From Antedon mediterranea (Eukaryota > Echinodermata > Crinoidea > Comatulida > Antedonidae), in NCBI RefSeq assembly GCF_964355755.1, contig NC_092670.1, forward strand, positions 10,043,201 to 10,107,200: a stretch of 64,000 nt of DNA, written 5' to 3'. A model generated the notes under the pieces. It was given only the letters and a program-made list of their open reading frames with translations. It had not been told where the DNA came from and searched no databases. Every line of letters begins with the position of its first letter. Position 1 is the first letter of the stretch. Position numbers and translations under genes: made by a program. This document shows positions 10,779 to 64,000 of this stretch, one piece after another.

Positions 10779-13669
10779 GTGTGTTAATTCATTGTGCATA
10801 TAACTTTTTTCCTACTTGGACCAACATGGTAATTTGACCAATCACTAGGCGATGGATCTTCTGAATTTAATTACTTGTATCGGTAAACTCACTTGCGTTG
10901 TTGCGTCCAAGCTGAAGCGTGGTTCCCACTAGCGCCGCAACACAAGGACGTAACGCAACGAAAGTGAATTGACCAATCACAAGCGATGGCTTATTCGCTT
11001 GTGATTGCTAACTGTCTATAACTTCGCTTGTCATTGGTTAAAACGCTTGCGTTGCGTTTACGTCCTTGCATTACGTTCTAGTGAGAACCAAGCTTTAGTC
11101 TTGGTTCGTACTAGGACGTAACGCAAGGACGTGAATGCAACGCAAGCGAACCGACCAATGATAAGCGACAGTTTCGTATAATTATGATTGGTCAAATTGC
11201 CATACTTTGCTCTTACGTCGTTTCGTCGCGTCCTAGTGGGTTATATGCGGCCGGGGAGCGATATTTCTTTTCCTACATAAGTTGGGGGCCACTCATGAAA
11301 CGTCACAAAATAAACATGACTACTATTCATTAGTCATCATTAAGGTGTGACGTAAGAATTGATCTAACTACAATTCAATAACAACAATACAAATGAAAAC
11401 GCTTTCTGTCGAGCCGTCAAATGGATTAGAATATGAACTTTACATGTCAATGTATCGGGTTCGAATCCCACGAGCAACTTATTTTTACTTTATAGTGAGA
11501 GAAATTATTTAGAGGGCTAGGTTCAGTTATTAGGAAGTAGTTTGGCTATCTTTCACATAAGGGGTTCCCCAAATTATGTACGAAAAGAAAAATCGCGGCC
11601 GGGACGTGTTTCCTCGACATGATTTAGTGGTTTATAGGAGGTCGTCTAGGCGAGGCTCACCGACGAAACGTCAGTCAATCGAATTGATAGAACCGTCTAA
11701 CACAAAATTGAATGATGGAATACGTCACACATGATTGTGTTCAATTTTGGAATGCCATGTTATATTTAATTTTAGTTTGTGCCTTCCATACCTGTCACTT
11801 TCTCTTGATGTAAAAAAGTGAAAATGATCACTCTTTTGTATTCCACTTTTAAAACAATTTACTCTTATAACGAGTGAAATATCCACTCGCTCTGTTTTCA
11901 ATTATGTAGCTGGCCGGCTGATTCGTGTCGCACGAATATTTCAGGCATGGCAGCAGATGGTAATACTCTTTATTTCATTATTATATTGCTGGGTATCTAT
12001 ATTATCAAAATGTAGTTATTTTTTAAGGTGTCTGTCCACGCGACGTCACTGACGTTAATGGCAATGAACATCGACCGATATTTTGCCATCGTGTATCCAC
12101 TGAAATCCATCCGATATCGGACGCCTACCCTGGCACTCACTATCAACATATCAATCTGGATCAGTAAGTACATATTTTATATGGAATTATATCGGACGAA
12201 GACATGGCTAATTTTGAATACCGTTTATTCTTAGCCATTTTGTCCTGGAACCTATACACTCGTCTTAATGGGAGGACAAGTCTGAGGGTAAAGACTATAG
12301 GAACCGTATGTTCACTGTCCACAATTGCTAGTGTTAATTGCTTGTGTGCACTAGTACTATAATAAGTATTCGTGACACTTGTGAATGCGGCATAGTTTGT
12401 TAATAGTTCAACCGTGGCGTACGGTCTAGTTTTTTTAATACTTTGTAATAATTTAGGTTATTGATAGATATAGACAGTATTAGTTTCAAGATTAATTTGA
12501 TAATGAAAAAAGTATTGAATTAGTGTATGAGAGGAATGACACTGACTACAAGCGATGATCGTAATAAGATGGTTATATCAAGATGTCATTAGGTAAAGTG
12601 TGACTGACTATCGACAGTCATCTAGATACAAAAGTCCTAGGTATAGGTGTAATAAGCATGGTGACGATGAAATTATACATTCACATAATATACAGCATCT
12701 AATTTATCACATGTGGAGGGTTAGGGTTAGGTTACTACACTAAATACACATGTGATCTATTCCCAATATTCCTATGATACTTTGGAAATATAGATACAGT
12801 ACCGAGAATCGGCTGGTATAGACCTACTAACCCGAAAGAAAGTTTTCGTTAAATAACCATTTATGCTGTCTTTGATAAAAATAATATTTATAAAATTCCA
12901 ATAAATTTACGTCATGATAAATATAAAATCGTTGTATTATCACGATGTTATTGCTCTTACTGATCATGACGTCATTTGATTGGACGTGTGAAAATATCAT
13001 TTTCATAAAAGGAAGCATAGATGGTTATTCTATATTTCTGGAATAAAAATTGCTATTTATTTAATACTTTTTACATGAATTTTCTTCCATTTAGTTTCAT
13101 CGCTTTTATCGATTCCAATTTCCATATTTTCAACGGTTATGGATTTCAACGGAAGACATTACTGTGTTGAAGAGTTCAACGAACAAGGGTTGTTAGCGCA
13201 CTACATTTACGTTGTGTTCAGTACCTACATAATCCCGCTCTCCGTCCTCGTTGTCTGCAACGTCAACATGTTGCGTCAACTGTGGAAGACGCGGGAACAG
13301 CTCCGAGACACAACATTAAGCCTGCACTCGATACAACAACGAAAGAAAGTTACCAAGATGATACTGCTGGTTGTTGTCTTTTTCTTTATTTGTTGGTTAC
13401 CGATACACGTGATAAATCTGTGGCAAAGACTCGGTAATAGTATCAACAATAACTTGGCCATTTCAAAGCTCAGGATTTTTGCTCTAACACTGGCGTACAG
13501 TAACTCGTGCGTAAACCCATTTGTGTACGCGTTCATGGGCGAGAATTTTCGCGCGTGTTTTAGAAGAGCATTCCCGATGTGTACAAAAGTGAACCGAGTG
13601 AGGAATAGTAGTATGTTATTAAACAACAATCGGACAAGAGAAACACAGGTACAAAAGGACACGGTTTAA
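10434..13669 (+). CDS. KISS1R-like: Kisspeptin-receptor-like class A GPCR (3 coding exons, 351 aa)
   Basis: Exons 10,434-10,778, 12,028-12,163 and 13,095-13,669 join in frame through consensus GT-AG sites to give 351 aa. It is a seven-helix plasma-membrane peptide receptor signalling through G proteins. Seen: N-terminal acidic/Tyr-rich ectodomain with N4 glycosylation sequon; TM1 with N52; TM2 with D80; TM3 Cys107; DRY at 131-133; a YPLKSIRYRTP second loop; Cys184 in ECL2; CWLP at 260-263 in TM6; NPFVY at 301-305 in TM7; a short tail ending TV. The block QVSVHAT...DRY...YPLKS.R.RTP..A closely resembles kisspeptin receptors (GPR54), with galanin and allatostatin-A receptors the next candidates. 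Class A membership is near certain; the ligand is inference. Intron 1 is filled with MITEs. An orphan second copy of exon 3 lies at 46,187. Confidence 0.88.
10806..11242. mobile_element. Cluster of fold-back MITEs in GPCR intron 1
   Basis: Three members of the family seen at 8,098 lie nearly end to end: a decayed one (about 10,806-10,912), a full fold-back (about 10,914-11,093, ends GTGGTTCCCACTAG / CTAGTGAGAACCAAGC) and another (about 11,096-11,242, ends CTTGGTTCGTACTAGGACG / CGTCCTAGTGG). Each contains the ACGCAACGCAAG / CTTGCGTTGCGT inner arms around a GACCAATCACAAGCGA-type centre. Confidence 0.7.
11247..11605. mobile_element. Inverted-repeat element in GPCR intron 1
   Basis: Left arm GCGGCCGGGGAGCGATATTT (about 11,247) and right arm with TCGCGGCCGGG near 11,595 are imperfect inverted repeats about 40 bp long, including TTCTTTTCCTACATAAGTTGG and its complement. 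A B-box-like GGGTTCGAATCCCACG at 11,457-11,472 lies between them and may be a separate SINE relic. It has no coding content. Confidence 0.5.
12028..12163 (+). CDS. KISS1R-like: GPCR exon 2 (residues 116-160)
   Basis: Starts after TTTTTTAAG with VSVHAT and contains the DRY motif (131-133), ICL2 and the first half of TM4. It ends ATCTGGATCA|GTAAGT, leaving one base that forms Ile161 with exon 3. The exon has no counterpart in the second copy of the duplication. Confidence 0.88.
13095..13669 (+). CDS. KISS1R-like: GPCR exon 3 (residues 161-351)
   Basis: The acceptor CTTCCATTTAG precedes 13,095. It encodes the rest of TM4, ECL2 with Cys184, TM5-TM7 and the cytoplasmic tail, ending ACGGTTTAA. The 128-codon open frame antisense to it is a shadow. 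Confidence 0.9.
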
Positions 13670-14634
13670 GCTATAAGATCTTAATACCTTTCCATTTCAC
13701 GGAATGAAATACATCGTTTTAGAAGCAGGTTGAATACAAAAACAGCGACGTTTCCGTTCCAAATAGAATAAGCGTTGAATGCAGAGATTTATTATGTCCT
13801 TCCGTAACCTGCGTACGGTACCATACTGAATAACGGCAAGTCGATTTTAATACTTTTTAATATATATATATATGTATATATTAAAAAAAATGGCAACTAT
13901 TAATAATATCTTAAACTATCATCAATTTTTTTCTGACGAAGGAATAGTGTTTGCAGGCTCATAGGCCTAATTCTTGGTGATTCTTCATTTTCGCTTATTT
14001 TATTTTGCATTACCATTGCGATCCAATAGTGGCCGTATTATATTCACACAATTGAGATATTTCCCTAGTGTTTAATAAAATTATTATCACATTCACAATA
14101 TAACTTTATAAAATTGTGTGTAACGTCTCTGTCTACGGGTGACATGTCAACCACAAAATCCCGTGATTACGTTTCTATAATATATTTTTCCTGACAACTA
14201 TTAAAATGAACAAAGTGCACCTTTTATAACATTCTGATGACCTGTTTGCAGTAGGCTCTACTTTTGAATGAGCGCACTTGAGTGGTGTTAAAGACTACAA
14301 TACAGTATCTTTAACTTCAACATGTGCGTGCTCTAAGCGATCGCATTACACTGTTTGTGTCGGACAATTACTCCGCGAAAAATATGTACAGGCTGTACGC
14401 GCGCCCTCTCTGAGGAGGATACAGAAGGTATCAGGTCAAGTCAGGTAGGGCTGTTGGTCCCGGTCTGTCTGGGCCTACTTATAGAGGATAATTATAATAA
14501 AAGCAAAATTACCTTATTCTTTTAGTTAGGTGGCCTTGCAATAACTCTAGGCTAGCATAGGCCTACTTTACTTAAGTAAGTTGTATATAGGCCTACACTA
14601 TTCTCAGAGGGGAAGTAGGCCCTACGGTCGCGTC
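13670..14634. other. GPCR 3' region and spacer
   Basis: Probable 3' UTR and intergenic DNA. A TA microsatellite lies at about 13,859-13,882 and candidate AATAAA signals near 14,073. No further gene is seen. Confidence 0.5.
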
Positions 14635-16075
14635 TGAAATCGGTCGCGTTTGAAATCGGTCGCGATAAAATCAACTTCCGGTATTTTGTATGGCGCGCCG
14701 CTAGAGCTATATTTAATTGATATTTTTTAGGAACTAGATTATTTATGTGGATATTTTTTACTTGGTTAATACATATTTATTATCAATCATTAAATTATTT
14801 TTTTTTAATATTTCACAGGTCTCGGAGAAGGACTGCGTCTTTTCAAAATGGCCATTTCTAAAACACGTTTAAATATTATATTAGGCATAATGTTATATTA
14901 GGCATATAATAATTTACCTCTATTTATATGTACTGTTGTAATTAATATATTATTATATAGAGAATATACGTCTGTCGTGTCTTTTATTATGCAAACAATT
15001 ATGTAAAAGAGAACAATTTATTTAAAAACAATAATTTTTACAATATAGCCCGTAAAGCCAGCGTATCCATTTTTATACTTATGCATACTGTGGCAGATTA
15101 TATCATATCCATGTCGTTAACAACATACTATTCGATCACCTTATTTTATTTCTATCCGTTATATGTAGGATAATATTAAGTGTATAATGATTATAGGTCT
15201 TTTGTTATTTAAACTTTGACCCTTGGCTTGTGTTATTTAATTAGTTGTTTTTTAAAAATTTTATTCATTGGACTTGATAATGACTCCATGATGTAGTCGA
15301 AACATCGTTCTTTTTTTAAGCGTTATTTTTCTATTATGTATTTATATTGATTATTGTTGAGGCAAATCACGTGTATATTTTTATTTCTAATGTTTCAAAT
15401 AGTTTTTAGTAAAATGATCATTATATGCGGATGGTTATAAGGCGAGTTACTGAAATAAACCCCCGAATAAGCCATATTGTGGAGATGCGCCTTCTATGAT
15501 CGTGCAGCTGTTTCCCCTAACAATACATTTTATTTTGCTGACGGGGTTTCCCCATTTTTAAAAAACATGCACTTGTTAGTGTTAAATCATGGACAAAACA
15601 CGTACGATCGTTGTCCATGGCGAGGTAAAGATGACGTCTATTACTAATAACCATACGTTTGAAACGTCTATAGGCCTCCTGCATGTGTTTTTGTGAAACG
15701 ATCCAATGAGCTATAGATGCTCGACGCGATTATGAGATCATGTTCATTCATTCATTCATTCTTTATTTAGCCTCTAAAATCGAAATATTAAAACGTAGGT
15801 AACAAAATCAAGACACGTGGAAATCTAAGGAGGCAAGGATAAGCAAAAGCAATTAAAATCGCTGTAGCTCACAGGCTTGCTTATCCATAATAATTCCGAA
15901 TAATACACTGTTTCTATAATTTGACAGTATGATTTATATATAATTTACGTATATACGTCGGCGATAGGCCTACTATAGATTTTAATTTGAATATCTTTTA
16001 TTTCTTCATTTATAATAATCATCCGGCTCGATCCATACAAAATAGCGCGACCGATTTCAAACGCGACCGATTTCA
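14635..16075. mobile_element. 1.4-kb DNA transposon-like element with repeated-motif TIRs
   Basis: The left end reads TGAAATCGGTCGCG twice in tandem (14,635 onward) and the right end is the inverted equivalent, CGCGACCGATTTCA twice (to 16,075). The TIRs are about 35 bp, and the inverted match continues into ATAAAAT / ATTTTGTATGG-like flanks. No transposase reading frame is visible. A LINE 3' tail is nested at 15,739-15,890. The second copy (47,726-52,591) is split by a 3.4-kb insertion. Superfamily unknown. Confidence 0.65.
15739..15890 (-). mobile_element. LINE/SINE 3' tail with (CATT)n, minus strand
   Basis: CATTCATTCATTCATTCTTT followed by a block ending CAGGCTTGCTTATCC. The complement, GGATAAGCAAGCCTG...TTTAAAGGCTAAATAAAGAATGAATG, is present in + orientation at 21,350-21,508, so both are copies of one 3' end with an AATAAA signal and a GAAT/ATGA tail, typical of CR1-like LINE ends. 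The corresponding second copies are at about 52,260-52,405 and 58,325-58,480. Confidence 0.6.
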
Positions 16076-16545
16076 AAAGGCACTCTTTTTCGGGCCTCCG
16101 TCCCTCGTAACCTAAATTAAAACAGCATTACATTGTGAGACTCGGGCACTACCCATTATTGACCATTCAGCCATCTAACCGGATTACAATGCATTGATAT
16201 AACACATTAGTACAATAGCCATAGAGGGCGCTATATAGGATCTACAGTACGACTAGGTGTAGAGAGGCAGACAGTTCGTATTTAGTAAAGGCCTACTTTA
16301 TACCAGGGAGTTGTAACTCCCTGTCTATACTAGAGTGGTATAGGCTATCACAAGTTTATTAATATTTGTTATATGTTTTTAATCAGATTATTTTTTTATT
16401 TCTCTCATTTTTTTACAGCAAAGTCAATGCATGAAGTAAAGGTCAATGGTTACACCATGCTATACATGACATCAAAATACATCTTTATAATAATTAATTG
16501 AGGATCTTTTGTTAGTTGACGTATTATGACACGAAAGTTGTAAAG
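16076..16545. other. GTDC1 5' flank, copy 1
   Basis: Spacer with no recognisable core promoter. It contains an inverted repeat GGGAGTTGTAACTCCC at about 16,306-16,321 and an in-frame upstream ATG at 16,516, ten codons before the preferred GTDC1 start. Confidence 0.45.
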
Positions 16546-16730
16546 ATGTCAAGGGTATTGTTGATTGAGGCGTTCTATGCTGGCTCCCACTCTCAGTTGA
16601 TCGACACTCTTCAGAAAGGCCTAGAAGGATGCGCTGTCAAATACACTTTGCCAGGGAAGAAGTGGCATTGGAGAGCACGGACATCAGCTCTATATTTTTC
16701 CGAAGTAATTTCACCTAGCCAAGAATACAG
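16546..16730 (+). CDS. GTDC1: GTDC1 copy 1 exon A (residues 1-62)
   Basis: N-terminal Rossmann-type start [15 protein letters not shown] with the conserved [15 protein letters not shown] block; donor ATACAG|GTTAAG. Residue 24 is Lys within TLQKGLE; copy 2 reads TLEKGLE. Confidence 0.88.
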
Positions 16731-17529
16731 GTTAAGAGTTGTGCATTATATTTTGACAGCAAAGGTCATAATCTTTATTTTTTTATCAATACCCTTTCTG
16801 TTGTAATAACAGAGGTGCCAACTTCAAAAAGTAAAAATCGAGGAAACAATTTTGAAGATACCCAAACAATAGAGGTTACCATAAAAGTTGGAAAATATTC
16901 ATCGGAATATAATAGAGGGCGCTATTAAAAACAATCATCAGCATTTGCATAATTAAAATATTTTTAAAAATAGTATTGTATTTACCCTATATGCTATATG
17001 TAAAAGTACACCAGATATTCGCCTACCTGGGAAATTCTTTCCCACTTGGGGCAAATCCAATGTATATATATATATCCCGTATCAATAATATAGTACTTGC
17101 TTATAATAGCCGTCTATATTGTCACCATGGCAAAACTGCCCTGATTTCAGGTTTCTCCCAACCATCTGCGCATGCCCCAGACGTCCATATGTCATGCATA
17201 CTAAATCAAGGCGCCCGTAGATGGTTGGTATGTTCAGGTCATTCATTCATTGGCCAGCCCCCTGGGATCGATACTACAATATTAAACAATGGATATGCCA
17301 GAGGTTACCGGACTCTGCAAACTGGGAAAATTTGTTACTAAAATCCAGTTTTACCTATATTTAACAAACAAGCTACTAGTAGAGTACTGTAGTAGTAACC
17401 TAAATATTAAATCATTCATTTAGATGTTTTTTCCATGTAATAATAATAATCTGGAGAAATTGTCCTTATTAGCAGGAAGTAAGAGATGACTCAAAATATC
17501 GGGGAACTGTAATAAACAATATTATACAG

Positions 17530-18640
17530 ATTATTACTTGACAAAGGTGTCCCACGCATTGATATTGTTGCACTGGCCTATAGTCGTGCATTTGATTCCA
17601 TTTCGCACTCTACAATGATTTCCAAACTGAAAAGAACCTATGGAATTGGTGGTTCCATGTTGCCTTGGTTGGAATCATTTTTAACTGAACGTAAGCAACA
17701 AGTTGTTTTTAACGGAAAGATGTCCGGCAAGAGTTGCGTAATATCAGGGGTTCCTCAGGGGTCTGTGCTTGGACCCCTGTTATTTAACATATATGTTAAT
17801 GATCTACATATGCACCTACGTGCAAAACCATATCAATATACAGAGACGACACTTGCATTGCTAAATGTATAATGACGGAGGAAGATAGTTTATCTCTGCA
17901 ACAGGACATTGACACGATCTCCTGGTGGTCAGCACTTAATTCACTTTCCATTAACCCTAATAAATGTCAAGTGCTGTCATTGTCCAGAAAACGAGATCCC
18001 GTTGTTCCATCTTGCATTCTAAATGGACATGAACTCATGAACGTTAATGACATTACGTTACTTGGTGTGGTAATATCCCATAATTTGTCATGGGCACATC
18101 AGGTAGATAATGTAACTTTGAAATGCAATAGGATGTTAGGTTTTATACGATCAATTGCCACAGGTTGTTCTACATCTGTTTTACTTAAACTTTATAAATG
18201 TCTTGTTCTTCCCCATATTCAATATTGCTCCCCTGTTTGGTATCCTTATCGTCAATGTCATATTAATAAGATAGAGAAAATTCAAAGAAGGGCAAGTCGA
18301 TTTATCCTTCATCAACGAATCTTAGATCAGCCATATTCTGACCGATTAACTAGACTGAATTTGATGACAGCTGAATCAAATCGAGATTATTTTACCGTTA
18401 TTTTTGTTACAAATATATTGTATAAATTACAGAATAGTTTTATTTTAAATATGTTGACTATCAATTGTAGGCATTTGGATGTTCTAACTTTTAAACATCT
18501 TGCATCCAAAACTGATAGGAAAGCATTGTATCCCAACCAGATTTATTCGTTTGTGGAATTCACTACCGGTCAATATTAAAGATGCCTTTGTTTGCGGAAG
18601 TTGGGTACAATTTAAAAATTGTTAATGGACCATTTTAAAA
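17530..18640 (+). mobile_element. Dead non-LTR retrotransposon (LINE) RT fragment in GTDC1 intron A-B
   Basis: In three adjoining frames the DNA reads a reverse-transcriptase core: GVPRIDIVALAYSRAFDSIS (motif A region), GVPQGSVLGPLLFNIYVNDL (motif B), then the C-terminal RT region with KCQVLSLSR, TLLGVVISHNLSWAHQV, LYKCLVLPHIQYCSPVWYP and LWNSLPVNIKDA. It is a CR1/Jockey/Rex-type LINE. Broken: the YADD catalytic box reads YTETT, a frame change follows at 17,872, and the motif A Asp seen in copy 2 (VALDYSRAFD) is Ala here. The 5' half of the element is absent. Confidence 0.9.
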
Positions 18641-18865
18641 ACACTATGCCTCTTTAATGTATATAATTATGGTATTAATATTACATATTTACATTGTTTT
18701 ATGTTTTAATGTATGCTTTGAGTGCTGGTGTGGCACACCTTATGACGACAGTGGTCCTTTGACCTCTTTTGCCACTCCTTGGCACACTCAAAGTTTATGT
18801 ATTGTTTTAATGTTGCTAAAATTAGATAAAATAAAATTATTAACTGTTCACTTTTCTTCCCTTAG

Positions 18866-19033
18866 AATTTTGTTTACCAGTTCAGTATTAAATTTAGCAG
18901 AGTTGGTAGCACTGCGACCTGATTTGTCTCGGCTGACCAAGATTGTTTACTTCCATGAAAACCAGCTGGTTTACCCTGTCCGAAAACAAAAAGACAGAGA
19001 TTTTCAATATGGATATAATCAAATAATAACATG
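18866..19033 (+). CDS. GTDC1: GTDC1 copy 1 exon B (residues 62-118)
   Basis: Acceptor TTCTTCCCTTAG. It encodes ILFTSSVLNLAELVALRPDL, KIVYFHENQLVYP and RDFQYGYNQIIT; donor ACATG|GTACTG. The frame is intact here, whereas copy 2 has lost one base in the GYN codons. Confidence 0.9.
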
Positions 19034-19251
19034 GTACTGTACATTTATTGTTAGTTTTTAAATTTATAGTAGGGAATTGAGAAGGATAGCAGGGGTGGAT
19101 CCACGATTTTGAAATATAGGGGTGGGGAGAAGGAGGCTCAGACACAAGCATTTGAGCGTTCGGTAAATACGACCCCTAGATAGTCAGAAAAGGTACTCGC
19201 ACATAAAATTTATGATAAAATGGCACCTCTCACTAATCTAGTTGGCCCGGG

Positions 19252-19330
19252 AGTGTGTTTTTTTTCCAGGACGAACGTGGGCAGAAGTCATGATTTCTGC
19301 CCACGTTCGTCCTGGAAAAAAAAATTACGC
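19252..19330. mobile_element. 79-bp hairpin MITE with 8-bp target duplication
   Basis: Two arms (CCAGGACGAACGTGGGCAGA and its complement, extended by T8/A9 runs) flank a seven-base centre. The insert is bounded by GGCCCGGG at 19,244-19,251 and 19,331-19,338, while copy 2 of the duplication has a single GGCCCGGG at this site, so the empty allele is visible. An 8-bp TSD is typical of hAT-type elements; no transposase is present. Confidence 0.85.
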
Positions 19331-19753
19331 GGCCCGGGAAGGACGTTTGTATCATGCGCAGAAAACAGCAAAACGATCATACTTTTTCTGGCTGGTAAAA
19401 CACAGTGACGTAACATTTTTTGCATATGTTGCGCATGTTCTGTGTGTAGGTAACTGCTGATTGTTTGATCGTACTTTACACAGTGTTGTGTTTTAATGGT
19501 AATTTTAAAGTTGTCATCCTGAATACTTACAGACTATTCCCCTTGATTTTCAGAAAAATCAACAATATTGTTGACGTCCCAAATGCTTATTTTAATCTGC
19601 AGTTATCTTTATCTCTCTTTATTTTGAAAAGTATTTTGCTCAGTCCATAATTTATTCTTCTATCTATGCCCAGATGAGGTCAATATTTATATGCAAAGGA
19701 AAACTTTATACTGTATAAAATTTATTTAATGTTAATTTACATTTTTCTTTTAG

Positions 19754-20119
19754 TTTAACTGCTGACATTGTTTTATTCAACTCAAAATACAACATGGAAT
19801 CTTTCTTGTCATCAATTGGGACATTTTTAAAACTTATGCCTGACTTCCGTCCTAAAGGCCTCGCTGAAAAGATACGACCAAAATCAAAAGTGTTGTATTT
19901 TCCAATAGAATTTCCAATAATGAATGATCCAATAGCAGATGTTATGGAAGGACTGACGTTAGCGGAACAGGCCAGTTCATTACATGAAAGTCAGGAGGTG
20001 TTTGAAAAATCCAAAGACAGGGCTATTAAATCAGGTGTCACCGGAGAACAGACAGTTAGCTGCAGTTCAGTTTTATCACAATTGTCATCCCCATTAAAAA
20101 TAGTATGGGCTCATAGATG
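19754..20119 (+). CDS. GTDC1: GTDC1 copy 1 exon C (residues 118-240)
   Basis: Acceptor TTTCTTTTAG. It encodes [40 protein letters not shown], a low-conservation Ser/Glu-rich linker and IVWAHRW; donor AGATG|GTACAG. The translation is identical to copy 2 as far as I compared. Confidence 0.9.
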
Positions 20120-20165
20120 GTACAGTCCTAGTGCATGTTTTGACTGCATCACTTATTTAGACTGC

Positions 20166-20630
20166 TATAATCATTTGAGTGCTATGCTTATTTAGTCTGC
20201 TATACTTATTGACACTGCTATACTTATTTACAGTGCTGTACTTATTTGACTGCTATACTTATTTGACTGCTATACTTATTTGACTGCTATACTTATTTAC
20301 ACTGCTGTACTTATTTACACTGCTATACTTATTTACACTGCTATACTTATTGACACTGCTGTACTTATTTACACTGCCATACTTATTTACACTGCTGTAC
20401 TTATTTGACTGCTATACTTATTGACACTGCTGTACTTATTTACACTGCTATACTTATTGACACTGCTATACTTATTTACACTGCTGTACTTATTTACACT
20501 GCTATACTTATTGACACTGCTGTACTTATTTACACTGCTGTACTTATTTACACTGCTGTACTTATTTACACTGCTATACTTATTGACACTGCTGTACTTA
20601 TTTACACTGCTGTACTTATTTACACTGTCT
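20166..20630. repeat. 17-18 bp minisatellite in GTDC1 intron C-D, short allele
   Basis: About 26 units of ACTGCTRTACTTATTTAC with TTGAC and TTTGAC variants, beginning about 50 bp after the exon C donor. Because 18 is a multiple of three, all frames stay open; the resulting repetitive 'proteins' are artefacts. The homologous array in copy 2 is about twice as long. Confidence 0.95.
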
Positions 20631-20706
20631 GAATTTTTACTATTTTGTGCCTAGTTTACCTGGATTTTTTAGTAGTGGTACTTATTCACATTTTTTTCTT
20701 TTGTAG

Positions 20707-20816
20707 GGAATACGACAAGAATCCTGACCTTTTTTTTAGAACACTTTATAAACTTCTAGATAGTGGAGAAGACTTCAGGATTTCTGTTCTTGGGGAACAT
20801 TACTAAGAAATTCCAG
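20707..20816 (+). pseudogene. GTDC1: GTDC1 copy 1 exon D with in-frame stop
   Basis: Acceptor TTTTGTAG. It reads EYDKNPDLFFRTLYKLL and ISVLGEHY, then TAA at 20,804-20,806, then EIP. Copy 2 reads SEIP at this point, matching the T/S-D-P/I pattern of homologues, so one C-to-A change explains the stop. EYDKN is also a private change (copy 2 EHDKN, as in vertebrate HRWEHDK). Confidence 0.9.
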
Positions 20817-20869
20817 GTAATTATAAAGTCAGTAGAGGGCAGTGTTAAAAAATATTGTCTGCGATTTAA

Positions 20870-24554: not shown

Positions 24555-24557
24555 TTA

Positions 24558-44545: not shown

Positions 44546-44547
44546 TT

Positions 44548-44889: not shown

Positions 44890-44890
44890 G

Positions 44891-52591: not shown

Positions 52592-53059
52592 AAAGGCACT
52601 CTTTTTCGGGCCTCCGTCCCTCGTAACCTAAATTAAAACAGCATTACATTGTGAGACTCGGGCACTACCCATTATTGACCATTCAGCCATCTAACCGGAT
52701 TACAATGCATTGATATAAAACATTAGTACAATAGCCATAGAGGGCGCTATATAGGATCTACAGTACGACTAGGTGTAGAGAGGCAGACAGTTCGTATTTA
52801 GTAAAGGCCTACTTTATACCAGGGAGTTGTAACTCCCTGTCTATACTAGAGTGGTATAGGCTCACAAGTTTATTAATATTTGTTATATGTTTTTAATCAG
52901 ATTATTTTTTTATTTCTCTCATTTTTTTACAGCATAGTCAATGCATGGAGTAAAGGTCAATGGTTACACCATGCTATACATGACATCAAAATACATCTTT
53001 ATTATAATTAATTGAGGATCTTTTGTTAGTTGACGTATTATGACACGAAAGTTGTAAAG
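52592..53059. other. GTDC1 5' flank, copy 2
   Basis: Equivalent to 16,076-16,545, with the same GGGAGTTGTAACTCCC palindrome and upstream in-frame ATG (53,030). No promoter assigned. Confidence 0.5.
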
Positions 53060-53244
53060 ATGTCAAGGGTATTGTTGATTGAGGCGTTCTATGCTGGCTC
53101 CCACTCTCAGTTGATCGACACTCTTGAGAAAGGCCTAGAAGGATGCGCTGTCAAATACACTTTGCCAGGGAAGAAGTGGCATTGGAGAGCACGGACATCA
53201 GCTCTATATTTTTCCGAAGTAATTTCACCTAGCCAAGAATACAG
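53060..53244 (+). CDS. GTDC1: GTDC1 copy 2 exon A
   Basis: Same as the first copy except Glu at position 23 (TLEKGLE). Intact frame, donor ATACAG|GTTAAG. Confidence 0.88.
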
Positions 53245-54041
53245 GTTAAGAGTTGTGCATTATATTTTGACAGCAAAGGTCATAATCTTTATTTTTTTAT
53301 CAATACCCTTTCTGTTGTAATAACAGAGGTGCCAACTTCAAAAAGTAAAAATCGAGGAAACAATTTTGAAGATACCCAAACAATAAAGGTTACCATAAAA
53401 GTTGGAAAATATTCATCGGAATATAATAGAGGGCGCTATTAAAAACAATCATCAGCATTTGCATAATTAAAATATTTATTAAAATAGTATTGTATTTACC
53501 CTATATGCTATATGTAAAAGTACACCAGATATTCGCCTACCTGGGAAATTCTTTCCCACTTGGGGCAAATCCAATGTATATATATATATCCCGTATCAAT
53601 AATATAGTACTTGCTTATAATAGCCGTCTATATTGTCACCATGGCAAAACTGCCCTGATTTCAGGTTTCTCCCAACCATCTGCGCATGCCCCAGACGTCC
53701 ATATGTCATGCATACTAAATCAAGGCGCCCGTAGATGGTTGGTATGTTCAGGTCATTCATTCATTGGCCAGCCCCCTGGGGTCGATACTACAATATTAAA
53801 CAATGGATATGCCAGAGGTTACCGGACTCTGCAAACTGGGAAGATTTGTTACTAAAATCCAGTTTTACCTATATTTAACAAACAAGCTACTAGTAGAGTA
53901 GTAGTAACCTAAATATTAAATCATTCATTTAGATGTTTTTTCCATGTAATAATAATAATCTGGAGAAATTGTCCTTATTAGCAGGAAGTAAGAGATGACT
54001 CAAAATATCGGGGAACTGTAATAAACAATATTATTATACAG

Positions 54042-55150
54042 ATTATTACTTGACGAAGGTGTCCCACGCATTGATATTGTTGCACTGGACTATAGTCGTG
54101 CATTTGATTCCATTTCGCACTCTACAATGATTTCCAAACTGAAAAGAACCTATGGAATTGGTGGTTCCATGTTGCCTTGGTTGGAATCATTTTTAACTGA
54201 ACGTAAGCAACAAGTTGTTTTTAACGGAAAGATGTCCGGCAAGAGTTGCGTAATATCAGGGGTTCCTCAGGGGTCTGTGCTTGGACCCCTGTTATTTAAC
54301 ATATATGTTAATGATCTACATATGCACCTACGTGCAAAACCATATCAATATACAGAGACGACACTTGCATTGCTAAATGTATAATGACGGAGGAAGATAG
54401 TTTATCTCTGCAACAGGACATTGACACGATCTCCTGGTGGTCAGCACTTAATTCACTTTCCATTAACCCTAATAAATGTCAAGTGCTGTCATTGTCCAGA
54501 AAACGAGATCCCGTTGTTCCATCTTGCATTCTAAATGGACATGAACTCATGAACGTTAATGACATTACGTTACTTGGTGTGGTAATATCCCATAATTTGT
54601 CATGGGCACATCAGGTAGATAATGTAACTTTGAAATGCAATAGGATGTTAGGTTTTATACGATCAATTGCCACAGGTTGTTCTACATCTGTTTTACTTAA
54701 ACTTTATAAATGTCTTGTTCTTCCCCATATTCAATATTGCTCCCCTGTTTGGTATCCTTATCGTCAATGTCATATTAATAAGATAGAGAAAATTCAAAGA
54801 AGGGCAAGTCGATTTATCCTTCATCAACGAATCTTAGATCAGCCATATTCTGACCGATTAACTAGACTGAATTTGATGACAGCTGAATCAAATCGAGATT
54901 ATTTTACCGTTATTTTTGTTACAAATATATTGTATAAATTACAGAATAGTTTTATTTTAAATATGTTGACTATCAATTGTAGGCATTTGGATGTTCTAAC
55001 TTTTAAACATCTTGCATCCAAAACTGATAGGAAAGCATTGTATCCCAATCAGATTTATTCGTTTGTGGAATTCACTACCGGTCAATATTAAAGACGCCTT
55101 TGTATGCGGAAGTTGGGTACAATTTAAAAACATGTTAATGGACCACTTTA
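54042..55150 (+). mobile_element. Dead LINE RT fragment, second copy
   Basis: Duplicate of 17,530-18,640. It retains the motif A Asp (VALDYSRAFDSIS) lost in the first copy; the YADD box is destroyed in both (YTETT), so the LINE was dead before the copies separated. Confidence 0.9.
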
Positions 55151-55377
55151 AAAACACTATGCCTCTTTAATGTATATAATTATGGTATTAATATTACATA
55201 TTTACATTGTTTTATGTTTTAATGTATGCTTTGAGTGCTGGTGTGGCACGCCTTATGGCGACAGTGGTCCTTTGACCTCTTTTGCCACTCCTTGGCACAC
55301 TCAAAGTTTATGTATTGTTTTAATGTTGCTAAAATTGATAAAATAAAATTATTAACTGTTCACTTTTCTTCCCTTAG

Positions 55378-55544
55378 AATTTTGTTTACCAGTTCAGTAT
55401 TAAATTTAGCAGAGTTGGTAGCACTGCGACCTGATTTGTCTCGGCTGACCAAGATTGTTTACTTCCATGAAAACCAGCTGGTTTACCCTGTCCGAAAACA
55501 AAAAGACAGAGATTTTCAATATGGTTTAATCAAATAATAACATG
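55378..55544 (+). pseudogene. GTDC1: GTDC1 copy 2 exon B, frameshifted
   Basis: 167 nt against 168 in copy 1. The frame is intact through KDRDFQYG and then shifts (LIK, stop at 55,535-55,537). The lesion combines a one-base loss with a substitution outside any homopolymer, so it does not look like a simple base-caller error. Confidence 0.9.
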
Positions 55545-56166
55545 GTACTGTATATTTATTGTTAGTTTTTAAATTTATAATAGGGAATTGAGAAGGACAG
55601 CAGGGGTGGATCCACGATTTTGAAATATAGGGGTGGGGAGAGGGAGGCTCAGACACAAGCATTTGAGCGTTCGGTAAATACGACCCCTAGATAGTCAGAA
55701 ATGGTACTCGCACACAAAATTTATGATAAAATGGCACCTCCCACTAATCTAGTTGGCCCGGGAAGGACGTTTGTATCATGCGCAGAAAACAGCAAAACGA
55801 TCATACTTTTTCTGGCTGGTAAACACAGTGACGTAACATTTTTTGCATATGTTGCGCATGTTCTGTGTGTAGGTAACTGCTGATTGTTTGATCGTACTTT
55901 ACACAGTGTTGTGTTTTAATGGTAATTTTAAAGTTGTCATCCTGAATACTTACATACTATTCCCCTTGATTTTCAGAAAAATCAATATATTGTTGACGTC
56001 CCAAATGCTTATTTTAATCTGCAGTTATCTTTATCTCTCTTTATTTTGAAAAGTATTTTGCTCAGTCCATAATTTATTCTTCTATCTATGCCCAGATGAG
56101 GTCAATATTTATATGCAAAGGAAAACTTTAAAATTTATTTAATGTTAATTTGCATTTTTCTTTTAG

Positions 56167-56532
56167 TTTAACTGCTGACATTGTTTTATTCAACTCAAAA
56201 TACAACATGGAATCTTTCTTGTCATCAATTGGGACATTTTTAAAACTTATGCCTGACTTCCGTCCTAAAGGCCTCGCTGAAAAGATACGACCAAAATCAA
56301 AAGTGTTGTATTTTCCAATAGAATTTCCAATAATGAATGATCCAATAGCAGATGTTATGGAAGGACTGACGTTAGCGGAACAGGCCAGTTCATTACATGA
56401 AAGTCAGGAGGTGTTTGAAAAATCCAAAGACAGGGCTATTAAATCAGGTGTCACCGGAGAACAGACAGTTAGCTGCAGTTCAGTTTTATCACAATTGTCA
56501 TCCCCATTAAAAATAGTATGGGCTCATAGATG
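56167..56532 (+). CDS. GTDC1: GTDC1 copy 2 exon C
   Basis: Same length and translation as the first copy, [20 protein letters not shown] to IVWAHRW; donor AGATG|GTACAG. Confidence 0.9.
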
Positions 56533-56577
56533 GTACAGTCCTAGTGCATGTTTTGACTGCATCACTTATTTAGACTG

Positions 56578-57600
56578 CTATAATCATTTGAGTGCTATGC
56601 TTATTTAGTCTGCTATACTTATTGACACTGCTATACTTATTTACAGTGCTGTACTTATTTGACTGCTATACTTATTTGACTGCTATACTTATTTGACTGC
56701 TATACTTATTTACACTGCTGTACTTATTTACACTGCTATACTTATTTACACTGCTATACTTATTGACACTGCTGTACTTATTTACACTGCTATACTTATT
56801 TACACTGCTGTACTTATTTACATTGCTATACTTATTTACACTGCTATACTTATTGACACTGCTGTACTTATTTACACTGCTATACTTATTTACACTGCTG
56901 TACTTATTTGACTGCTATACTTATTTACTCTGCTGTACTTATTTACACTGCTATACTGTACTTATTTACACTGCTATACTTATTGACACTGCTGTACTTA
57001 TTTACACTGCTATACTTATTGACACTGCTATACTTATTTACACTGCTATACTTATTTACACTGCTATACTTATTGACACTGCTGTACTTATTTACACTGC
57101 TATACTTATTTACACTGCTGTACTTATTTGACTGCTATACTTATTTACTCTGCTGTACTTATTTACACTGCTATACTTATTTACACTGCTATACTTATTG
57201 ACACTGCTGTACTTATTTACACTGCTATACTTATTGACACTGCTATACTTATTTACACTGCTGTACTTATTTACACTGCTATACTTATTGACACTGCTGT
57301 ACTTATTTACACTGCTGTACTTATTTACACTGCTGTACTTATTGACACTGCTGTACTTATTTACACTGCTATACTTATTTACACTGCTGTACTTATTTAC
57401 ACTGCTGTACTTATTTACACTGCTGTACTTATTTACACTGCTGTACTTATTGACACTGCTGTACTTATTTACACTGCTATACTTATTGACACTGCTATAC
57501 TTATTTACACTGCTGTACTTATTTACACTGCTATACTTATTGACACTGCTATACTTATTGACACTGCTGTACTTATTTACACTGCTGTACTTATTTACAC
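56578..57600. repeat. 17-18 bp minisatellite in GTDC1 intron C-D, long allele
   Basis: About 57 units of ACTGCTRTACTTATTTAC with TTGAC variants, against about 26 in the first copy. Higher-order blocks (for example the GACTGCTATACTTATTTACTCTG variant at about 56,911 and 57,131) repeat with a period near 220 bp, indicating block duplication. Open frames across it are artefacts. Confidence 0.95.
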
Positions 57601-57682
57601 TGTCTGAATTTTTACTATTTTGTGCCTAGTTTACCTGGATTTTTTAGTAGTGGTACTTATTCACATTTTTTTCCTTTTGTAG

Positions 57683-57792
57683 GGAACACGACAAGAATCC
57701 TGACCTTTTTTTTAGAACACTTTATAAACTTCTAGATAGTGGGGAAGACTTCAGGATTTCTGTTCTTGGGGAACATTACTCAGAAATTCCAG
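57683..57792 (+). CDS. GTDC1: GTDC1 copy 2 exon D, without the stop
   Basis: Reads EHDKNPDLFFRTLYKLL and ISVLGEHYSEIP; donor TTCCAG|GTAATT. It provides the ancestral state for the nonsense codon in copy 1. Confidence 0.9.
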
Positions 57793-57845
57793 GTAATTAT
57801 AAAGTCAGTAGAGGGCAGTGTTAAAAAATATTGTCTGCGATTTAA

Positions 57846-59609
57846 AGGGGGATTCTGGGTTTAAAATTGCTTTTAAATATCGTTTATTTATTAAATAAAA
57901 AATACAGATATTATAACAATATAGACATGTCAGAATGAAGAAGTAATGACGAGAAATTAAAAAAATTAAATTTCATATACATTTTAGGGTAAATTCATGG
58001 AAAGTCTGTTTTTCAGCAGCTTAGGGAAGTCCATTAATATTCATGAGATATTCACAAAATCACGTCATCAGTGGATTCCAAACTTGCGACGTCAAGCTTG
58101 TACGTTGTGTTCTCTCTCCCCTGTCAAACGACGACCACCCGATCATTGTGAAATACATTTTTTTTAGATTTTCTAAGCTAGGCCTAAAGTGTAATAATAA
58201 CAGTAGTAGCATATATTTATTTGACATTTAATGAAATACAAAATTTAGTACAGATTACGGAGTCATAAATTATACTATTTTTATACCTCGAATAGTACAG
58301 ATCGTATATCGGCTTCACGTACTAGGCTAGGCCTGGATAAGCAAGCCTGCGAGCTACAGCGATTTTAATTGTTTTTGCTTATCCTTGCCTCCTTAGATTT
58401 TCACCTGTCTTGTTTTTGTTACCTTGTTTTAAATGTATTTCAATTTTAAAGGCTAAATAAAGAATGAATGAATGAATGAAGGCCTAGCCTAAATCATTTT
58501 ATTCATGGGTGAGAGCCATTTCTGACTAGGGATTCCATGCCACGATGGCTACGTTAAAACATTGGGGCCATCATTCATGGGCCTAGCTAGCCTATTACTA
58601 AACGATTGGCCCATAAATAACAAAAGTCAGTGGATTCCAAACCCATCCTATCAACCAAACTCCTAAACAATCTAAACCTAAAACGTTCTACAAAAATCGG
58701 CTGTAAATATTGAGGCAAAACAAGGTCCGATCGCCGTCCGCACGTATGGTGTCCCGATCGTCTAATAAGTAGGCCTGAAATAGGCCTAGTTTACTCTCCA
58801 AAAAAGCGGATACTGCATCAAGCAAGTAGACCGGTAGTAGGAAGGAGACCTAGCCTATCCGGCCCAGTTAAAAATTGAGCTAGCTAGTGTAGTAGACCCT
58901 ATGCGAATTGATACTACTAGGCCTTTTACTATAGGCTACACTTGTTAAAATTAGCAATACTGTACTTATGTTTACAAATATTCCAACTCTCTCATTCGAG
59001 CTATATTATCTATACCATTCCGGTAGGTCGAGTCGACCTTCAATCAAATACTGTACATCGTTCATGTTGTAATTTAGACGGGGTATACTCGACCCGACCA
59101 GTTTGGTATTGTATACTGTATCTGCTTATCACGTGACGATGCCAGGCATGGGCAGAGAGAGCACGTGTATCGTCGTCTCGCTCTCCTCGCTCAGCAGGAA
59201 TGTATACGTTACGCTTCATTGATTTTGAAGGCTTTCCCTAAGTCAGTGCGAAAATCGGCAAACGTAAAGTGCAAACTTATCTAATTTTTCACTGTTTTGA
59301 TGGATTTTCATAGAAAATTGACTTTATAAATGGGAAGACCGACTAAAATTACATCAGATAAGTATAATTTTACAAAAGTAATTGATATGGTTAATGATAA
59401 CGAGTCGTCGGAAGATTGACCATTTCACGAATTTCCTATTCTGTAACCATATTGTGATTTTGCCGTAGCTGCACTTGTAATCTGGCCTCATTTCACAGCC
59501 TTCGTTCTGCTTCACTGGGCGCTTATATAAATTGAAACTTTTACCGTTCAAGAGACAAACAAATATATTTTACATTTTTTACTATTCATTTTAAACCCGG
59601 AACCCCTCT
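57846..59609. mobile_element. piggyBac-like (TTAA) element, second copy
   Basis: Counterpart of 20,870-22,631 with TTAA at both ends and the same neighbouring empty-site repeat (about 59,704-59,830). It contains the LINE tail at about 58,325-58,480. Confidence 0.8.
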
Positions 59610-59970
59610 TTAAAAACATTAAATATCATTTATTTGTACTGCCACTGTTTAACATTCCTAAAGAAGCTAGAATAAATTATGGTATTGTTCAAATTCGATA
59701 AAATCAGTAGAGGGCAGTGTTAAAAAATATTGTCTGCGATTTAAAAATATTATAAAATATATCATTTATTTGTACTGCCACTGTTTAACATTCCCAAAGA
59801 AGCTAGAATAAATCATAGTATTGTTCAAATTTGATTGAATAGCGACTCTGTTTAGTACGGCGGAACAGCACTAGTCCCTGAATTACACATGTGCACTAGA
59901 GATCAGATTGATACGCCCTCATCTTTCAGTATTTTAATTCACAAAGTGGGATCTACCTGTTTTTATATAG

Positions 59971-60115
59971 ATATTTTCACTGAGGCTTATGAGAGTCTGA
60001 AAGATAATATAGTTCATTGGGGTTATCAGCAGTCAAAAGAGGACTACTATCAAGTATTGATAGAGGGCGATGTTGCTGTATCAACGGCCAAGCACGAGTT
60101 TTACGGTGTTGCAAT
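59971..60115 (+). CDS. GTDC1: GTDC1 copy 2 exon E
   Basis: Identical translation to the first copy's exon E, ending HEFYGVA with the split Met codon at GCAAT|GTGAGT. Confidence 0.88.
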
Positions 60116-60560
60116 GTGAGTAGTTTTAATTATTGTTTAACAGTTCGATTAGGCCCTCTACAGACACAGAAGCCATGGTCCAGATGCCTATCATAAACGA
60201 CAGGAGCTGAAATGGACCAGTACATTGGGGTAACCCCCTAAACTCTACCGTAAGATGTTTTTTTTTAATGTACACAAGGCCCATGGACTCCAGTTTTAAG
60301 TTTTTTCCAAGATGTCTTGTTGTAGCACCAGAATAATATTCAAGGAGAGCCTGGAACCTGTACTGATGTTATGGCTTTATTTTTTGGCGCCCCTAAACCA
60401 AAAGACAAGATCACCTAAAATTTAAGTATTTAAAGTTTACAATACTTGGTGTTGTATAATATGGAATAGCCACTCTCTAATTTCTTTGCGTTCACCATTA
60501 TAGCTTTACTCCGATTATAAATTTTGAAATAGTTACTGGAAGCCTGATGTATATTTATTA
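60116..60560. other. GTDC1 intron after exon E, copy 2
   Basis: As in copy 1 up to about 60,364, then about 94 bp (GGCTTTATTTTTTGGCGCCC ...) not present in copy 1, then homologous again. No gene. Confidence 0.5.
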
Positions 60561-63011
60561 GGCGTCATCTAAAAATTATTTCAGACCACAGAGACACGTC
60601 TGAAAACTTGCAACCCATCAGACGCGTCTGTCCAATGCTGAACCTCATTAACGATCTATTATGAATATTCATGAGCTACCCAATCGCGGCGAAGACGCGT
60701 CTGTGTGATTAAAACCCGTCTTCGCTGTTTAGTAGGTAAAACAATAGAAAACGCGTCTGAGTGATTAAAACCCGTCTGTATTGCTTGTATGGTGAAACAA
60801 CATTGGTATCATTTCACAGAACCAACAAATCTGAGACTAGGCCTAGGTTATCCTAATTTGGACGGAAATTCGCCGATGAGACGACATCGGGCCTGTGGAC
60901 CTCAGCTCATGCAGAGAGAAAGAAAGTCTAGGCTAGCCTAGTTTCGGCGGCCTACACACTAGCTAGGCCTATAAATTATTTAATGCTCCTACCTTGGGTT
61001 AGCGAATTATAAAAACAACGACGCCTAGGCTAGGATATGAAAAATAAATATATTTTCCATATTAAGATAAAACATGAGCAGTTTAGAGCTAGAGAGAGAG
61101 TATTATGTTTCATGTCATGTGACACAAAATCCAGGTACACGATCTTAATTACTGTTTTATCGTCGTCCAGACGGCAGCCGCCAGAGTATCGCCTTTCATG
61201 CCATGTGACCAAAAAAACTAGGTCTGTATTTATTACGGTCTTCTGTCGGCAGTCTTTTTGAGCGACCGACTGAAAACGTTCAGATTCTATATTTAGAATG
61301 AATAGTTTACGATCTTTTTTTCTCGGCATCGTTCTGGATGGACTGGACGTTCGCTATAATATGTTTATTAAGCCCCTTTCTCACAGATGTGCCTGCAATA
61401 TACCGGTACAGTGCTGGCGTCGTGCCGGTATCGTTACCGGCATATACCCATTCTCATCGGACTATCGTGCCGGAAATATAACCGGTATATACCGGCTTTC
61501 TGTGAGAAAGGAGTCGGGCATATTCGGCCAATAAAAAGTCTCTGACAAAATAATTATTGAGGGCGTCCTTTATTGTTATTATTTTTGTCTAGCGATGATA
61601 TGGCGGCGAATGTTAAGTTACAGATTATTATCTTCCTTTATAGCATATTTATGCAATACATGCTATGTACAGTATATTGTGCATATATTATACAGGTATA
61701 GCAATTAATTTGCCGTCATCGGCAATCTGTAAAACACCTTAGAAGGCTGTAGGCCTACAATTTACAAGGCGACGAAAGGTCAGGCACCAACAAACAAAGA
61801 GCTAATAATGGCCTAGCCTAGCGGCCTATATAGATTATGCTACAAATTTCTTCTTGTCCCCTTATTTTAAGCAGCTCTCTTATCTCATTATCCCTCCAGT
61901 TCCACATTATTATTGTTAATTGAATTGAATAGGCGCCAAAGTGATACACTTGACTGCGCAAGGTGTCAAAGCCTCGACGGGGAACCCCGGAATATAACGG
62001 CAATACGTTCTCACAGAATGCCCGTCTGGCATTGCGGGGAATATCCCTAGAATATTACTAGGTCTAAAGCAGGTCATGTCGATGCCGGCATGGTGCCGGC
62101 ATGATGCCAAGACGACCCGTTCTCACAGAAAACCATACCGGCATGGTAATGGTATATTCCCGCAATATTCCTGGCACACAACTCTGTGAGAAAGGGGCTT
62201 TAGTTGGCCTGTTCGTTGAGGTTCACTTGTGTTGGATCGCGTGTCTCTACGTTTACATCGTGGGAAATTTATATTTATATTCGCCGTTGAGTAGGTAAAG
62301 ACGCACGAAGGAAACGATTACGATTAAAAAATATTATATATTTACAACTTGGTCCTCCGCCAGTTAAATTTAACACATTAATTTCACACCTTCTTACTTC
62401 ACTAATATCGTATAGGGTTGTTTATTTAGGTTACGAACTCCCTACAAAGTTCAGAACGTAGCTCATTGAGGTTACGAAGCCAAACAATGGAACCTACGAA
62501 GCCAACAAAGTAGCCTACGAAGCTACTTCGTAGGTAAAGTTGCAGTATTTTCTTTCTGTACTGTAGGTCAATAGTTTTAGTAATTCCATGTTCCAAAAGT
62601 TAACTTTAACGTTTTTGCATGTGGTAAATTCACTCTTTAGCACAAGAAAAATAAAATCGCAAAAATAAAAGGTCGCGAATAAATAGAAACGAAAATTTGC
62701 GCTTTACAGTATACTCTGTCGGCGGTAAAAGGGTATACCTGTACTGATTTGTTTGTCTTATACTGCCGGTTGTAAATAATAATTTAATATCACGCTCTCA
62801 ATGAATTCACTTGTATGTAGCGCGTTTAACACCAGTACACAGTATAACAATGTGCAGTCAGCCGTATATAGGGGCGGGGCCATAGTCGAACATGCATATT
62901 GGCGTCTAGACGCAGCCAAATCAGACGGGCTTTGAGACGCGTTTTTGGGTAAACAATAGAAAACGCGTCTGGACGCTGATTTGTGGTCTGAAATAATTTG
63001 TAGATGACGCC
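60561..63011. mobile_element. 2.45-kb TTA-flanked (PIF/Harbinger-like) element, copy-2-specific
   Basis: TIRs of about 30 bp, GGCGTCATCTAAAAATTATT and its complement ending AGATGACGCC, lie between TTA at 60,558-60,560 and 63,012-63,014; copy 1 has the uninterrupted TTTATTACGTCAG. Subterminal ACGCGTCTG motifs recur at both ends. No transposase frame. A second TTA-flanked element (61,371-62,199) is nested inside. Small hairpins such as CCTACGAAGCTACTTCGTAGG lie at about 62,514. Confidence 0.85.
61371..62199. mobile_element. 829-bp TTA-flanked MITE nested in the 2.45-kb element
   Basis: Ends AGCCCCTTTCTCACAGA and TCTGTGAGAAAGGGGCT are perfect inverted repeats flanked by TTA (61,368-61,370; 62,200-62,202). 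The interior is rich in ACCGGCA / TGCCGGT and a second internal TTCTGTGAGAA pair. The TSD and TIR style fit PIF/Harbinger. No coding domain. Confidence 0.85.
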
Positions 63012-63255
63012 TTACGTCAGAATGTATAAACAAAATTTTCAAAAATTCTATCAACTAAAAGTTGAAGTAAATCACGTCTCTAGTCCATTCTCAGTTGCCA
63101 CACTTGTGTTGTTTACTCTGAAATAACCGTTTAATAATCTCTTTGCTTTCTCATGTCCATTCTACAGTTATCACAGATTGACTAGTTTAGTCATACCCAG
63201 TATCGTTTTGGTTTTACAATTAATTGAGAATATACCTCATGCAAGTATTTAATTA
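63012..63255. other. GTDC1 intron, copy 2
   Basis: Homologous to about 23,490-23,732; no additional feature. Confidence 0.5.
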
Positions 63256-64000
63256 GGCCCTGTTTCTGCTTCCAACTAAATACCGTATATTATACGGTAT
63301 TTTTTGAATACCGTATATATACGGTATATTTTTGGCAGCAGAAACTGCGCTCATAAAAAATATACCGTATTTTTTATACCGTATTTTCCCCACAAAATTT
63401 GTGGATAAAATACGGTATTTACAAATTTATACCGTATTTTTTGTACCCGTTTCTGCTGCCAATAAAAAATACCGTATTTTTTTTTTACATGACAAAAGGT
63501 CAACATTTGTATTTTTATTTTCTGTCGCTGTCAGCTGTTTTACACACGTGTATATATAATATATTCGGCGAAAATGTGGAGCGAAGACGTCACAGTTTTA
63601 CTAAATAAATTTGTGTGGGGAAGCTAAAATGTCTGGCCAACTAAAAGGTAATAAAAGGGACAACCACATTTATAAAGACATTTCTAAAAAACTAAAGCAG
63701 GAGTATGGAATAGACTTGTCTCCAAAGCAAGTAAACTCAAAGCTAAAGAGCCTGCGAAAGCAGTACAACATTGCAAAATACAATAACTCGGGGAGGGAAC
63801 GAATTAATTGTCCCCATTACGATGTTTTCTGTGCTCTCACAACATCTCTTTCACTAGGGCTAGGCTGTTGAAAGTGAGACGTAAAACTTCCTTTATTGCA
63901 ACTTTTAATTATCGATCAAATAAATGAATGGCAATTTGGGTAAAAAAGATGAAATTTAACACGACCACCCAAGAAGTATTGTTAGCAGAAACGGGGTACT
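63256..64000 (+). mobile_element. PIF/Harbinger-like element, second full-orientation copy (cut by window end)
   Basis: TTA then GGCCCTGTTTCTGCTTCC, the ATACCGTAT array, the Myb/SANT frame (63,611-63,871) and the start of the right subterminal zone. Orthologous in position to 23,733-24,554, so the insertion predates the separation of the two copies. Confidence 0.85.

Follow-up and report, generated by a model that had tools for sequence, protein, structure and literature searches.

The stretch of DNA considered here – the window, 64,000 nucleotides of the crinoid Antedon mediterranea (C1:10,043,201–10,107,200, C1 being contig NC_092670.1 in an assembly of 354 Mb and 18 contigs) – carries two differing versions, in direct orientation, of a segment that bears a G-protein-coupled receptor (GPCR) gene and the gene GTDC1. 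An earlier note offered two models for this arrangement: a tandem duplication, or two haplotypes joined end to end. Our analysis favours a real duplication, but neither model fits as stated. The window very probably comprises two adjacent, differently damaged units of a megabase-scale array of segmental duplications that spans C1 from about 9.95 to 11.0 Mb, and the best reading of the array is a fast-turnover cluster of FReD (fibrinogen-related domain) genes in which the receptor and GTDC1 are passengers. The reading covered about 0.2 Mb of the ~1-Mb array; the work was on assembly sequence alone, and most of the choice between duplication and haplotypes is settled from it.

Evidence for an array came firstly from a search of the whole genome with a 3-kb probe taken from where the repeat begins, which found eight same-strand loci between C1 positions 9,963,024 and 10,914,933 (~0.97 Mb). 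These GPCR–GTDC1 units are numbered c1–c8 by position, c2 being the 5′ copy of the window and c3 the 3′ copy. GPCR exon 3 is present at eight loci, six of which also have exons 1–2 and the region that precedes the gene. Matches to the domain PF12038 place GTDC1 exons B and C at ten loci and exon A at nine, all on the + strand of C1, and exon E likewise matches at ten loci. The earlier note had missed the units beyond the window, which bring the set to eight GPCR–GTDC1 units and, near 3 Mb, two copies of GTDC1 only. In its full form, as seen in c1, a unit consists of GPCR, GTDC1 exons A–E, an antisense FReD gene nested in the intron between GTDC1 exons E and F, exons F–G, more FReD genes in a module here called B, and then the next GPCR; the spacing of most neighbouring units is about 33–125 kb. 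The GTDC1-only copies, g9 and g10 (C1 2.95 and 3.00 Mb, within 2.946–3.011 Mb), lack GPCR, and their homology begins just before exon A; they may be copies that became dispersed, or haplotype sequence that belongs to the array and was misplaced.

These numbers bear directly on the possibility that two haplotypes of one locus were assembled in succession and that the duplication in the window is false. The window copies are ~1% apart in substitutions and differ by indels and inserts, as alleles of a heterozygous animal could, and false duplications are common in assemblies according to one account (PMC9516828). However, such an error leaves at most two copies per locus, whereas here there are 8–10; because a diploid has two haplotypes, assembling everything twice would still leave no fewer than four units, and a two-haplotype join cannot give the units observed. 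The same source states that most false duplicate pairs have an assembly gap between them (PMC9516828), yet there is no N in the window or in any of the fetched loci (33/33), a check outside which most of the ~1-Mb array lies. Moreover, the window copies are colinear over 12,367–30,535 only, and the same junction between them is found at a second place. On copy number and non-colinearity we reject the two-haplotype join as the main model for the window, and we consider a wholly false duplication most improbable.

Relations among the copies were assessed by pairwise distances over six blocks (c8 being left out of the GTDC_A block, c5 of the 'down' block, and g9 and g10 of the GPCR block). Substitution differences range from 0 to 2.7% and are mostly ~1%, and the nearest relative of a copy varies along the module, which gives a mosaic pattern. 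Incompatible sites among the eight array copies are clustered (0.139 versus 0.207 in shuffles; 54 sites, P = 0.0005), a pattern that supports past recombination between units. Two points tell against too firm a view of this: the test counts the near-identical c3 and c7 as separate sequences, and when g9 and g10 were among the eight sequences tested the outcome was borderline (49 sites, P = 0.051). A direct segmental-duplication array is expected to hold a number of same-strand copies within a single region, their identity made mosaic by recombination, and the loci show this.

Within the window the repeat and the genes that it carries are as follows.

12,367–30,535, + strand: duplicated stretch, 5′ copy, from self-comparison and DNA past the window.
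45,469–64,000 and on to about 70,041, + strand: duplicated stretch, 3′ copy, on the same basis.
10,434–13,669, + strand: putative kisspeptin-receptor-like GPCR gene of the 5′ unit (coding exons 10,434–10,778, 12,028–12,163 and 13,095–13,669; intact 351-amino-acid frame).
46,187–46,761, + strand: GPCR exon 3 of the 3′ unit, the gene being 5′-truncated.
16,546–23,140 (end approximate), + strand: predicted GTDC1/QTMAN exons A–E of the 5′ unit, with a premature stop in exon D.
20,151–20,627, + strand: 18-bp minisatellite, 26.8 units; in the 3′ copy it occupies 56,564–57,602 (57.8 units).
47,980–51,397, no strand assigned: private transposon-like insert of 3.4 kb whose ends are inverted, seen in none of the other seven units at the corresponding site.

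Comparison of the window with itself by blastn placed the restart, reported earlier as 12,368 recurring at about 45,470 in the same orientation, at 12,367/12,368 versus 45,469/45,470. Orientation and position thus stand; the proposed ~33-kb extent does not, as high colinear identity is confined to 12,367–30,535 and only ~18 kb of the 33-kb spacing is common to both copies. In window numbering continued beyond the window's end, the shared DNA is 12,367–30,535 versus 45,469–70,041. Identity is 96.8% between 12,367–14,888 and 45,469–47,979 and 98.2% between 14,887–19,252 and 51,398–55,763; the matches go on to the end of the window, and the last block (23,489–30,535 versus 63,012–70,041) is 96.4% identical, high identity ending there. 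Much of the finer description proved sound: exon identity is close to the 99.6% given (two of 575 bases differ in GPCR exon 3, and GTDC1 exons A–D show five substitutions and one missing base in 829 bases), the minisatellite differs about twofold in length, the 3′ copy has an insert of its own at 47,980–51,397, and the 5′ copy has GPCR exons 1–3 where the 3′ copy has exon 3 alone. In the intron after GTDC1 exon A, a fragment resembling reverse transcriptase occurs at 17,516–18,576 and 54,025–55,088 (RVT_1 E 0.0002, under the curated cut-off); because it is present in both window copies it predates their split. A long minisatellite of ~50-bp period lies upstream of c2 at C1:10,039,000–10,042,300 and is much shorter at the homologous site upstream of c8.

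The limits of colinearity also bear on the simplest form of duplication, a single tandem event over 12,367–45,459, for which the earlier note had placed breakpoints in GPCR intron 2 and in a GTDC1 intron. At the junction a downstream end does run into GPCR intron 2 in the direct sense, as it would after such an event. A tandem duplication repeats its whole interval, however, and no copy of the 15 kb before the junction (30,536–45,468, and with it 30,536–45,459) follows the 3′ unit as far as C1:10,126,500: the copies diverge at 30,535. In addition, the module to the left of the junction elsewhere precedes three-exon GPCR genes, and there are many further copies. The model is already contradicted unless a switch of gene class in copy 1, described below, came later; we reject it as an account of the window and hold even that version to be very unlikely.

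The break at 30,535 falls within FReD sequence.

26,590–35,027, − strand: antisense FReD exons, namely Fibrinogen_C exons at 26,590–26,916 and 29,479–29,796 and a PAN exon at 34,605–35,027.
30,535–30,536, no strand: putative class-switch scar between two FReD gene classes, spanned by c2 alone among 40 of 1504 candidates scored.
33,597–44,547, + strand: B module, a FReD cluster unit, with homology in parts (33.6–35.3, about 37.1–37.4, 39.7–39.9 and 41.0–44.5 kb).

The fibrinogen exons lie to the left of the switch and are of the nested class, while the PAN exon lies to the right and is B-class-like. To the left, c2 shares 96–98% identity with seven nested FReD copies and about 81% with B; to the right, similarity to the nested copy of c3 drops to 80–90%, and a preference for B is clear from about 32.95 kb (89–93% versus 80–90% for nested copies), reaching 98–99% by 41 kb. 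The scar looks like the product of an exchange between FReD classes, an event that would account for the loss of exons F–G from the GTDC1 of c2. Some reserve is called for: from 31.45 to 32.84 kb neither class is much closer than the other (87–91%), and the B copies are 98.7–99.3% alike among themselves in the pairs compared, so that the sequence to the right of 30,535 does not single out a donor. The piece just right of the scar (30,534–31,315) is 95% like C1:2,995,760. Along C1 9.98–11.25 Mb, Fibrinogen_C exon matches lie on the minus strand to about 11.14 Mb and thereafter on the plus strand, among the matches listed when 150 of 370 candidates were scored. Other groups of FReD exons among the matches listed are at C10:12.73–12.92 Mb and C1:1.14–1.16, 9.11–9.15, 18.43, 29.49 and 40.29–40.35 Mb. 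The FReD genes may have an immune role.

The distribution of GTDC1 exons F and G, sought with a query that had a presumed C-terminal half, accords with a loss confined to c2. Matches to both occur downstream of c1 and c3–c8 and none downstream of c2. That the 5′ GTDC1 lacks its 3′ end, as had been claimed, is borne out by there being no exon F or G match anywhere in the window; that the 3′ GTDC1 might run past the window is supported by a match to exon F at C1:10,118,679 (E 5e-9) and a weak one to exon G at 10,124,325 (E 0.006). Weighing on the other side, the exon G matches are weak throughout (E 0.003–0.01), and exon F-like matches also occur at sites without exons A–E, in the array and on C6. 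These sites, all near FReD exons, are C1:10,175,201, 10,244,709 and 10,293,657, and C6:19.00–19.04 Mb; exon F-like sequence seems to travel along with FReD genes. A PF00534 search of the cluster gave no match to the GTDC1 C-terminus.

The junction at 45,469 has its own history, in which two features are involved.

44,886–45,459, + strand: multi-copy inverted-repeat element, presumably resembling a miniature inverted-repeat transposable element (MITE), lacking at least about its last 105 bp and cut by the junction.
45,455–45,470, no strand: junction, at which the interior of the element gives way to AT-rich filler of about 10 bp and then to GPCR intron 2; the same sequence lies inside C1:10,578,906–10,579,506.

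Elsewhere the element is about 0.7 kb long, and it is common in the genome. The full junction matches at two places only, at 100% over 601 bp (40 of 429 candidates scored). To its left, the 41.0–44.5 kb stretch of the B module recurs at 95–99% identity in the first 1.25 kb and 87–93% in the last part, with a dispersed element between; six strong matches are 98–99% identical over the first 593 bp. Three of these (10,033.9, 10,292.3 and 10,892.6 kb) lie 18–20 kb upstream of the three-exon GPCR genes of c2, c4 and c8, that of c4 being frameshifted. B homology ends at 44,547. At the window junction 0.92 kb separates the end of B from GPCR intron 2, as against 17.7 kb upstream of c2. Because the B module precedes three-exon GPCR genes elsewhere, and because of this difference in distance, a deletion is a simpler account than the edge of a duplication: the best reading of the junction is a putative ~17.7-kb deletion that took GPCR exons 1–2 in an older array. 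Several observations pull the other way. Two of the six strong B matches (10,173.8 and 11,021.5 kb) are followed by no GPCR match, a third (10,562.7 kb) precedes c7, the 339 bp at 44,548–44,885 match neither upstream reference, and a deletion and a duplication edge leave an identical join. Homologous recombination between copies of the MITE-like element was dropped as a candidate for the junction, since the element stops short of its end and other DNA follows.

The second occurrence of the junction belongs to a much larger block.

38,213–64,000 (window part), + strand: block recurring 490.8 kb away (C1:10,572,239 onward), sampled over about 165 kb, with about 0.03% substitutions.

Near-identity begins abruptly at 38,213, with three mismatches in 3,361 bp, at the edge of a direct repeat (37,102–38,254 and 39,626–40,769, 96.5% identical). 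The c7 sequence, C1:10,575,600–10,595,599, matches window 41,574–61,561, junction included, with two substitutions and a few short gaps over ~16,580 bases. Three samples out to C1:10,246,000 each show one mismatch per 2.5 kb and gaps of up to 17 bp, and a fourth, at C1:10,284,500, falls to 98.65% over 1.6 kb; in total the block shows eight substitutions in about 27.4 kb sampled. Each of c3 and c7 has its own ~3.4-kb insert with inverted ends, at different sites, and alignments of other units run through both sites without an insert. Within the second block, FReD exons with equal scores recur in 45–47-kb steps over C1:10,689,959–10,763,813 (among the matches listed), which suggests that this block is longer by two such steps, perhaps through another recent tandem step.

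So close a likeness raises the question of whether part of a real array has been counted twice, the haplotypes lying end to end at 10.081–10.246 and 10.572–10.822 Mb, or perhaps more widely as c1–c3–c4 and c6–c7–c8. The few substitutions and the different inserts in the two copies are as alleles might have them, and the order of c1–c3–c4 and c6–c7–c8 is roughly, or in part, parallel, as a doubled haplotype would give; this last point also counts against the main reading of the array. Yet c1/c6 and c4/c8, the other pairs in the parallel order, differ by about 0.4–1.4%, so that one uniform allelic divergence is a misfit; the equal FReD scores suggest extra 45–47-kb steps in the second block only; and there is no N in the fetched parts. 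We regard partial double-counting as possible, though on balance doubtful. It is compatible with a segmental-duplication array and would alter how many copies there are but not what the window is.

For the array as we read it, a plausible course of events can be outlined. FReD-rich units that were misaligned would have undergone unequal exchange and gene conversion, and units would thereby have been multiplied and homogenised. An exchange between two FReD genes would have taken out GTDC1 exons F–G from the 5′ unit of the window. In the unit ancestral to the 3′ one, a break in the MITE-like element, repaired with ~10 bp of filler, may have cost ~17.7 kb including GPCR exons 1–2, and the damaged unit may later have been copied with roughly 165 kb or more of its surroundings.

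The receptor is of class A (7tm_1, 8.5e-60), and among solved structures its nearest relative is the KiSS-1 receptor (2e-62, 215 bits), the next kind being somatostatin receptor 5 (172 bits); by these matches it is predicted to be kisspeptin-receptor-like. Its frame is intact in four of eight units (c1, c2, c5 and c8), frameshifted in c4 and c6, and without exons 1–2 in c3 and c7. GTDC1 is by its domain a predicted QTMAN, PF12038 (QTMAN_N) scoring over the cut-off in 29 of 29 exon matches listed; we take QTMAN to be the tRNA-queuosine mannosyltransferase. Exons A–D are open in 6/10 copies (c1, c4, c5, c6, c7 and g9). Both window copies are broken by lesions that the earlier note overlooked, a stop in exon D of c2 and a 1-nt frameshift in exon B of c3; elsewhere c8 is without a donor after exon A, and g10 has deletions in exons A and C. 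No solved structure was found for GTDC1, the only match, to an exonuclease (E = 0.029), being taken as chance.

A bolder idea, speculative and rather unlikely in our estimation, is that FReD turnover is so fast that transposon insertion matches the pace of point mutation, dragging the receptor and the tRNA-queuosine enzyme gene through changes in copy number; it stems from the two private ~3.4-kb inserts set against two substitutions in 16.6 kb. Were it true, the dosage of a kisspeptin-type receptor would vary between individuals simply because the cluster turns over. The locus would also inflate gene counts, given that the eight kisspeptin-receptor-like copies are four intact and four damaged. 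If read depth confirms the array, it would provide an example from nature of a cluster that rearranges rapidly and carries unrelated genes with it, the scars of deletion, gene fusion and fresh insertion being legible at the level of single bases.

A literature search, not made by organism and hence weak as a negative, yielded no paper that we recognised as describing this array; parallels with known systems are nevertheless instructive. In common with false haplotypic (heterotype) duplications, as described in PMC9516828, there is a near-identical repeated stretch in an assembly; unlike them, there are 8–10 copies, no N gap between the window copies, and ends that are not colinear. In the starfish Asterias rubens, kisspeptin-type receptor genes have also been multiplied, some being clustered on one chromosome; those receptors, however, are distinct paralogs, several with identified ligands, whereas here near-identical copies stand among FReD genes (PMC9400282). 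A further parallel is with the Sp185/333 (SpTransformer) clusters of the purple sea urchin, for which one study describes genes that are clustered and lie in direct segmental duplications, along with deletions, repeats at the edges of duplications, putatively allelic clusters with unequal gene number, and a locus reported as misassembled (PMC5103432). The differences are of family (here PAN/fibrinogen-domain genes), of scale (duplications of 4.2–4.6 kb there, a spacing of about 33–125 kb between most neighbouring units here) and of content: unlike Sp185/333, the array in A. mediterranea carries unrelated receptor and enzyme genes (PMC5103432).

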